A DNA stretch of 64,000 nucleotides. It comes from Thermogladius calderae 1633 (GTDB lineage Archaea; Thermoproteota; Thermoprotei_A; Sulfolobales; Desulfurococcaceae). The stretch covers positions 186,001 to 250,000 of the forward strand of contig NC_017954.1 in assembly GCF_000264495.1 (NCBI RefSeq). The letters run 5' to 3'. Shown here piece after piece: positions 48,895 to 59,144 of this stretch. Both the position numbers and the translations under genes were made by a program. Every line of letters starts with the position of its first letter. The stretch's first letter is position 1. A model generated the notes under the pieces. That model was not told the DNA's origin and made no database searches. It was given only the letters and a program-made list of their open reading frames with translations.

Positions 48895-49398
48895 TCACGC
48901 CAGGCTCCTAACGTAAGAAGATAGGACTTCAAGGCTCTTGCCTATCGAGGTTATTAGCTTGTCGAAGCCTTCTCTCTCAGTACACACGGTGAAAATAGAG
49001 GAGGGAGGGCTCACGAGGTCTCTCAACGACCCTCTCAAGGCAACTCTGACCAAGACTCCTTTAGGGCTACATCTAATGTAGAGCTGCGTCCCTTCTATGG
49101 TATCCGAACACGCGACCCAGTCTCCCACCTTAACGAGGGGTTTGTTACACGGGCACTTTGACGCCCTGGCCCAATACTCAAGGCACACACTCCTAACGTA
49201 CTCGGTTGAGCCCGCGGACTTCACCTTGTATATCACGTCGTGAACCGCCCCGATCTCCGCGGACAGCAGTGCTATTAAAGAGACGGGTGGAAGTACTTCG
49301 ACTCTAAAACCCTTCTCTCTCAGAGCACGGGCTAGCTTGGGGAGCGCGACCTCGCTTACAGCGTCCATGTAGAGTTTGACTAGAAGCGTCGCCCCCAA
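48895..49398 (-). CDS. Hypothetical protein flanked by C/D sRNAs
   Basis: 167 residues, not recognised. It has a Cys-rich middle (CLEYWARASKCPCNK, VACSD, IRC) that could bind metal, an N-terminal alpha/beta part and a C-terminal helix. No signal or membrane segment. TTG 49398 has AGGGTG (49410-49405) at good spacing, located immediately after the D box of the upstream sRNA. It therefore sits between sRNAs at 49.4 and 48.8 kb on the same strand, and the three may form one precursor. Confidence 0.6.
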   Translation of the reverse strand: MGATLLVKLYMDAVSEVALPKLARALREKGFRVEVLPPVSLIALLSAEIGAVHDVIYKVKSAGSTEYVRSVCLEYWARASKCPCNKPLVKVGDWVACSDTIEGTQLYIRCSPKGVLVRVALRGSLRDLVSPPSSIFTVCTEREGFDKLITSIGKSLEVLSSYVRSLA

Positions 49399-49407
49399 AC
49401 GCTACAC

Positions 49408-49462
49408 CCTATCAGGCAGGGATAACCTCCTCACCGATCAGGGCTCCCTTATCATCACCAAA
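49408..49462 (-). ncRNA. Candidate box C/D guide sRNA (23S peptidyl transferase region target)
   Basis: Minus strand: box C GTGATGA (49458-49452), 10-nt guide TAAGGGAGCC, D' CTGA (49441-49438), spacer TCG, C' GTGAGGA (one mismatch), 12-nt guide GGTTATCCCTGC, D CTGA (49415-49412). ATTTAAGT (49490-49483) is a TATA box 26-30 bp upstream. The D guide is complementary over 10 nt to CAGGGAUAAC, the universally conserved 23S segment ending at C2452. The N+5 rule predicts Gm2446 (E. coli numbering), which by my recollection equals the yeast snR38 site Gm2815. Confidence 0.72.
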
Positions 49463-49499: not shown

Positions 49500-49556
49500 G
49501 GTTTCAGAAACACGAGCCGTCTTCACTAATCCGATAAGTGGCGACTCATCATCACA
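49500..49556 (-). ncRNA. Candidate box C/D guide sRNA
   Basis: Minus strand: box C ATGATGA (49552-49546), 12-nt guide GTCGCCACTTAT, D' CGGA (one mismatch), spacer TTA, C' GTGAAGA (one mismatch), 12-nt guide CGGCTCGTGTTT, D CTGA (49507-49504). The 12/3/12 geometry is textbook. AATAAATTTGG (about 49586-49575) is a TATA box at correct distance; read the other way it serves the DUF2208-like gene. It lies in tandem directly upstream of the next sRNA. Predicted targets AUAAG and AAACA (modified last base) are not identified. Confidence 0.62.
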
Positions 49557-49618
49557 ACCTAATATTACTATCCAAATTTATTAATCTACCAGCCAATAGT
49601 GTTCTTAGCGTGTCCGCG

Positions 49619-50338
49619 ATGATGGGCCAGCCCAAGAGGCACGTCAGCATCCTGATCAACGCCGTCAGCATAATAGTCATAGCCCTCTTGACAACCCTGC
49701 TACCGGCGTACAGTCTACTGATATTCTTCGTCTTCTACATGTTCGTCTTATTCATCGTCTACAGGTTCACAATGAAAACTGGTAAAATGCCCCCGCCGAG
49801 CGAGCTTGGGACCCCCTTATACAAAGAGTCTAACGCCATGAAGGTCGCGGTCTCAGACCCGGGCCTAAACAAAGACCTAGGACAGCAATTCAAGTTCCTC
49901 ATGGTAACTATCGCAATCTCTATACTGGCGATCTTCCTGTACTCGCTTTACAACGGGCTAGCCGGCGTAGAGTTGGTGAGCCTCCTTCTTACTGTGACGG
50001 GGAGTAGGTTGCTTTCCAATTTCCTGAACTATGTTACGATGTACGCCTTCATCTTCGTCATACTTTACTCGTTGAGGTGGGCCGTCACGAGGAAGATGAC
50101 CTACGTGAACTTGATCATACCCTATAGCTTCGCAGTATATAGGAAGGGTATCGTGATAAACAACAAGAACTTTATAGCACTAGACCACAACCTCTGCCTT
50201 ATTTTCAACAAGCAGAGGAGGTTCATCGAACTACTAGACCCTCGATCCAAGTCCTCTAGGATCAGGCTCTACACCGAGACTCCTACAACCTTATACGAGA
50301 GGCTAGTCGAGGTGGGTTTCAACGAGTGTAAAGCATAA
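49619..50338 (+). CDS. Multi-pass membrane protein (DUF2208-like)
   Basis: About 239 residues with four to five predicted helices (near residues 10-45 as a pair, 95-115, 120-145 and 150-175) and a basic cytosolic C-terminal domain (about 185-239). It resembles a crenarchaeal family I recall as DUF2208; function unknown. AAATTTATTAATC (49575-49587) about 28 bp before GTG 49610/ATG 49619 suggests a leaderless mRNA, so I reject the longest start at 49538. It overlaps the small zinc-binding gene that follows. Confidence 0.72.
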   Translation: MMGQPKRHVSILINAVSIIVIALLTTLLPAYSLLIFFVFYMFVLFIVYRFTMKTGKMPPPSELGTPLYKESNAMKVAVSDPGLNKDLGQQFKFLMVTIAISILAIFLYSLYNGLAGVELVSLLLTVTGSRLLSNFLNYVTMYAFIFVILYSLRWAVTRKMTYVNLIIPYSFAVYRKGIVINNKNFIALDHNLCLIFNKQRRFIELLDPRSKSSRIRLYTETPTTLYERLVEVGFNECKA

Positions 50339-59086: not shown

Positions 59087-59144
59087 CTTGGTGATGACGA
59101 GACCTAGAAGCCGACTCGTGACGACCCACGCAGGATCTGATGAA
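59087..59144 (+). ncRNA. Candidate box C/D guide sRNA
   Basis: Plus strand: box C GTGATGA (59091-59097), 13-nt guide CGAGACCTAGAAG, D' CCGA (one mismatch), spacer CTC, C' GTGACGA (one mismatch), 12-nt guide CCCACGCAGGAT, D CTGA (59137-59140). ACTTAAATAAGC (59054-59065) is a TATA box about 26 bp upstream of the expected 5' end. No protein gene follows on this strand. Predicted modified bases: last U of CUUCU and of AUCCU; I cannot name the targets. Confidence 0.65.

Follow-up and report, generated by a model that had tools for sequence, protein, structure and literature searches.

Introduction

Yeast 25S Gm2815, a site marked as PTC, is guided by the snoRNA snR38 (PMC8307265), and snR38 has counterparts in human, Arabidopsis and Dictyostelium (PMC8817022); the link between Gm2815 and snR38, stated in a preliminary description of the locus treated here, is borne out by both sources. 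For the Gm2815 site, the table in PMC11542601 gives no P. abyssi equivalent, and the same source names RlmM as the enzyme that methylates E. coli C2498. Archaeal guide sRNAs are described as fast-evolving, and in a survey of seven species no target position was common to all seven (PMC7994747).

Here we describe an element found in a stretch of 64,000 nucleotides from Thermogladius calderae 1633 (NC_017954.1, positions 186,001 to 250,000; hereafter the window, in which all positions without a contig or locus label are counted). Judging from its boxes, its complement in rRNA and its relatives, it is very probably an archaeal C/D box guide sRNA that would direct 2'-O-methylation of G2446 in 23S rRNA (E. 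coli numbering). The sRNA belongs to a known kind. Of particular interest are the conservation of its register across a class, the co-variation of guide and target at nucleotide 2444 and, in related families, the pairing of a G2446 guide with a C2498 guide.

Anatomy of the Element

A scan of the window for elements with all four boxes of a C/D sRNA returned three (the sRNA studied here, its upstream neighbor at 49504-49552 on the minus strand, and one at 59091-59140 on the plus strand), and returned none in 40 dinucleotide-preserving shuffles. In agreement with the preliminary description, the boxes of the sRNA studied are canonical and span 49458-49412 on the minus strand. Its parts are as follows.

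49408 to 49462, minus strand: C/D box sRNA, whole element (four-box scan and orthologs at L010 and L011)
49452 to 49458, minus strand: box C, GTGATGA, perfect against RUGAUGA
49442 to 49451, minus strand: D' guide TAAGGGAGCC, 10 nt, with 23S C2475 (helix 89) or C2816 as candidate targets
49438 to 49441, minus strand: box D', CTGA (CCGA in the sister species)
49428 to 49434, minus strand: box C', GTGAGGA, one mismatch to RTGATGA
49416 to 49427, minus strand: D guide GGTTATCCCTGC, 12 nt, of which 49426-49417 pair over 10 bp with 23S C2443-C2452
49412 to 49415, minus strand: box D, CTGA, perfect against CUGA

From 49459 to 49410 the minus strand reads GGTGATGATAAGGGAGCCCTGATCGGTGAGGAGGTTATCCCTGCCTGATA, and the layout is GTGATGA (C), TAAGGGAGCC, CTGA (D'), TCG, GTGAGGA (C'), GGTTATCCCTGC, CTGA (D), with a short spacer of 3 nt between the internal D' and C' boxes. 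No Rfam family reaches its cut-off for the sRNA at 49408-49462, and the guides in 18 related loci are likewise without a family above cut-off. Folding of the RNA alone is uninformative (z -0.5), as is expected of a C/D sRNA, and scans of the locus for sigma-70 promoters and terminators, whose models are not applicable to archaea, gave nothing. The genes for fibrillarin (PF01269, C1:49941) and Nop5 (PF01798, C1:49152) adjoin each other in the Thermogladius genome.

The Surrounding Region

Two further features lie upstream of the sRNA.

49502 to 49556, minus strand: another C/D box sRNA, in tandem on the upstream side and conserved in Thermogladius
49571 to 49590, minus strand: AT-rich motif GGTAGATTAATAAATTTGGA, some 20-35 nt ahead of box C of the upstream sRNA and conserved in the genus

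The upstream sRNA scores 39.3 bits with Rfam sR5, just below the cut-off of 40, and its D guide forms 13 bp (one G-U) with 23S rRNA around nt 699 of the gene. The two sRNAs are probably co-transcribed in tandem, and the AT-rich motif is a possible archaeal promoter shared by the pair. Divergent from them runs a frame for a DUF2208 membrane protein (49538-50338, plus strand; PF09973, E 7e-62); translation probably starts further in, near 49619, because the long open reading frame overlaps the box C region of the upstream sRNA and the promoter-like motif. On the other side, a 167-amino-acid open reading frame without a Pfam match (48895-49398, minus strand) begins about 10 nt past the sRNA, and its start region is recognizable in one sister genome (G001, locus L011) and not in the other (G003, locus L010). 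The third C/D-like element (59091-59140, plus strand) has all four boxes and shows no in-register 9-bp match to 16S or 23S rRNA.

The D Guide and Its Predicted Target in 23S rRNA

Positions 2-11 of the D guide pair with exactly 10 nt of the genome's own 23S rRNA (CAGGGAUAAC; gene at L038:7042-10724), and position 1 is unpaired. The preliminary description had predicted both this complement and that the nucleotide five upstream of box D (N+5) would pair with G2446. Alignment of the guide with the organism's own 23S sequence confirms the complement, and when the region is aligned with rrlB of E. coli K-12 and with 11 further archaeal 23S sequences, the paired stretch falls at C2443-C2452 and N+5 is G2446. 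Thus 49420 pairs with G2446, and 49418 (T) with A2444. The genome contains three copies of the sequence CAGGGATAAC: in the 23S gene, as the sRNA's own complement, and at a third site (L003) that has no Rfam match and looks protein-coding. The 23S gene is interrupted outside the window (L002:480-992) by an insertion that contains a reading frame for a LAGLIDADG endonuclease (PF00961, E 3e-12), presumably an archaeal intron.

The 10-bp duplex is the best match of the D guide in 16S or 23S rRNA, the runner-up having 9 bp with one G-U, and its 10 Watson-Crick pairs, which span N+5, compare with the at least 9 expected of a guide. About 2% of random 13-nt segments of the window reach at least 10 Watson-Crick pairs with 16S or 23S rRNA, so the pairing by itself is modest evidence; what carries the case for a real guide is conservation, a fixed register and co-variation in relatives.

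Conservation across the Class Thermoproteia

Two other Thermogladius genomes (G001, locus L011; G003, locus L010) carry an ortholog of the sRNA. Their 10-nt pairing core is unchanged and the flanks diverge, with substitutions at position 1 of the D' guide, in box D', in the D'-C' spacer and at positions 1 and 12 of the D guide. Both genomes also keep the upstream neighbor sRNA and the AT-rich motif that precedes it.

We searched a sample of the class comprising 229 genomes from 16 families. The pattern GTTATCCCYGNCTGA gave 71 matches in 67 of these genomes, versus five control matches, and inspection of the surroundings of every match showed that about 60 are C/D sRNAs with C and C' boxes and the same register (matches in G150, G087, G099 and G195 were left out of this count). 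In most class C/D sRNAs with a G2446 guide, box C' lies exactly 12 nt before box D. The guide is present in nine of the 16 families (f1, f4, f6, f7, f8, f9, f10, f12 and f15); its exact form was not seen in most genomes of the class, where many assemblies are incomplete and the pattern applied is strict. With the register left free (box C, GTTATCCC, a spacer of 0-6 nt, CTGA), 20 distinct loci were found in the 229 genomes, and the reversed-pattern control gave no match. Eighteen of the 20 have a 3-nt YGN spacer, so that N+5 stays on G2446.

A sample of the rest of the phylum, searched with the strict pattern, yielded no guide in the G2446 register, and other registers appeared at about the rate expected by chance. 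A broad pattern scan of contigs returned mostly bacterial chance matches, and two archaeal ones (L021 and L035) were discarded because they have no C' box. The G2446 guide turned up in Thermoproteia and, outside that class, in a single genome from another small archaeal phylum; there a compact C/D sRNA (L022:7239-7290) has it in the D' position, which looks like an independent origin.

Co-variation of Guide and Target

In the majority form within the class, 23S rRNA reads CCGGGGAUAAC and the guide GTTATCCCCG; in the Thermogladius form they read CCAGGGAUAAC and GTTATCCCTG. Thermogladius has A2444 in 23S rRNA with T in the guide, whereas most relatives have G2444 with C. Among the 11 genomes in which both guide nucleotide 3 and nucleotide 2444 of the genome's own 23S were read, 10 show C-G and one, Thermogladius, shows T-A. 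G195 was left out of this test because its 23S sequence looks like that of a different lineage and is a possible contaminant. A compensating change in guide and 23S rRNA is therefore seen once directly. A second is suggested in the family of G132 and G133: apart from Thermogladius, G133 is the one genome of the class with a T guide set in C/D anatomy, and A2444 is found in G132; the G133 assembly is without 23S. G132 itself showed no matching guide, even allowing one mismatch. Matches to the T form in G018, G019, G027, G032 and G036 (L004-L008 and L012) are without C/D anatomy and apparently lie in coding sequence; one of them, L004, passed a loose box filter by chance only and was rejected as a C/D sRNA.

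The Partner Guide

The D' guide of Thermogladius has the form GGGAGCY. In the genome studied it forms 6 bp at C2475 (helix 89) and 8 bp at C2816; that of the sister species forms 8 bp with helix 89, with N+5 at C2475. Many G2446 sRNAs in five other families (f4, f6, f7, f8 and f10) have a D' guide of the form ATCGAGGTA, whose N+5 nucleotide is C2498 wherever a target was predicted (with a related genome's 23S where the own 23S is absent). Loci that join a G2446 guide to a C2498 D' guide include L041, L043, L052, L056, L067, L073 and L078. G2446 and C2498 flank helix 89, which would let a single RNP bind the two sites. The partner guide also suggests that a mark made by a protein enzyme in E. 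coli is RNA-guided in these archaea.

Proposed Mechanism and Alternative Explanations

We infer that the sRNA is expressed and assembled into an RNP, with its C/D and C'/D' motifs as the binding sites of L7Ae, Nop5 and fibrillarin. Pairing of the D guide would take place with C2443-C2452 in the central loop of 23S domain V, and fibrillarin would then methylate the 2'-OH of G2446. The D' guide of Thermogladius may contact the nearby helix 89 and, given the C2498 partner guide in the five other families, the RNP may also hold both flanks of that helix during folding.

Could the D guide instead be aimed at helix 8 of 16S rRNA (GGGGGAUAAC; N+5 at G128 of the own 16S), with the 23S match incidental? 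It does pair there over 9 bp with one G-U, and the C-form guide of the relatives would pair over 9 bp without any G-U. However, the change to T in the guide weakens its pairing with 16S (-14.5 kcal/mol, versus -17.0 for 23S rRNA), and guide nucleotide 2 (G), which pairs with 23S C2443, mismatches 16S and is kept in 18 of the 20 loci though the search did not impose it. Moreover, the guide T accompanies A2444 although the own 16S keeps G, which means that the guide followed the 23S sequence. Because guide and nucleotide 2444 changed together, 23S is favored over the similar 16S sequence, and we regard 16S as a very unlikely true target. Even harder to credit is that the locus is a chance C/D-like sequence in an intergenic region and no gene at all. 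That a 10-bp rRNA match alone would arise for about 2% of guides and that no Rfam family scores above cut-off would fit such an origin, but no element of this kind arose in the 40 shuffles, the orthologs keep the pairing core intact while the flanks diverge, and the guide co-varies with its 23S target.

A different possibility is that the RNA is real and acts mainly as a folding chaperone that binds both flanks of helix 89, methylation being dispensable or absent. The D and D' guides do point to nearby domain V sites in several families, and Dennis et al. (2015; PMC4644070) report the proposal of a role of this kind for double-guide sRNAs. Yet a register held on one nucleotide fits selection for a methylated position better than selection for pairing alone, which makes a mainly chaperone role improbable in our judgment. 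The roles of methylation guide and folding chaperone are compatible with each other.

Relation to the Eukaryotic Site

The preliminary description had equated yeast Gm2815 with G2446. We take yeast A2820 to be the equivalent of A2451 and hence chose 2446 for Gm2815. The offsets of the published table, taken alone (anchors 2619 = 2251 and 2921 = 2552; PMC11542601), allow either 2446 or 2447. By numbering offset, then, the target of the sRNA appears to be the same site that is methylated in yeast, plants and humans. The further claim of an ancient conserved site holds within the class Thermoproteia. As a claim of common descent with eukaryotes it is no more than suggestive: in the part of the phylum sampled outside the class, the strict pattern picked up no guide in the same register, and the published table gives no P. 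abyssi equivalent. Convergence is the alternative to common descent of the archaeal and eukaryotic guide and site. It is tempting to speculate, as a tentative and somewhat doubtful picture, that RNA guides in both hyperthermophilic archaea and eukaryotes have preserved Gm2446 as an ancient mark on the peptidyl transferase loop, that in several archaeal families one sRNA adds C2498 and clamps the flanks of helix 89 while the catalytic center folds, and that the guide co-evolves with the rRNA. With its register kept over nine families, its changes shared with the target and a site that appears to be that of a eukaryote-wide snoRNA, the G2446 guide is well suited for asking if marks of this kind are passed on by descent or arise anew time and again.

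Comparison with Known Systems

Among Rfam families the best score for the sRNA is that of sR35 (RF01123), which comes mainly from the shared boxes; at 25.3 bits it lies below the gathering cut-off of 60, and the guides differ. snR38 and its counterparts in human, plants and Dictyostelium are also C/D guides, and their methylation site appears to be G2446 by numbering offset. They are eukaryotic snoRNAs, in contrast to the archaeal sRNA described here, and the likeness is drawn at the level of the site. RlmM, which makes Cm2498 in E. coli, acts on the same nucleotide as the partner D' guide in five related families, but it is a protein enzyme that works alone, with no guide RNA, and the likeness concerns the partner guide of the relatives and not the Thermogladius genome.

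A literature search for a reported archaeal Gm2446 returned no relevant paper. The main text of the survey by Dennis et al. (2015; PMC4644070) names neither this guide nor this target, and an earlier prediction in another species is possible. With the archaeal C/D sRNAs as described in that main text, the Thermogladius sRNA shares the boxes, their spacing, the double-guide layout, the N+5 rule and at least 9 pairs to rRNA, and thus has the sequence features by which such sRNAs are recognized there; its target likewise lies near the hotspots of domain V.
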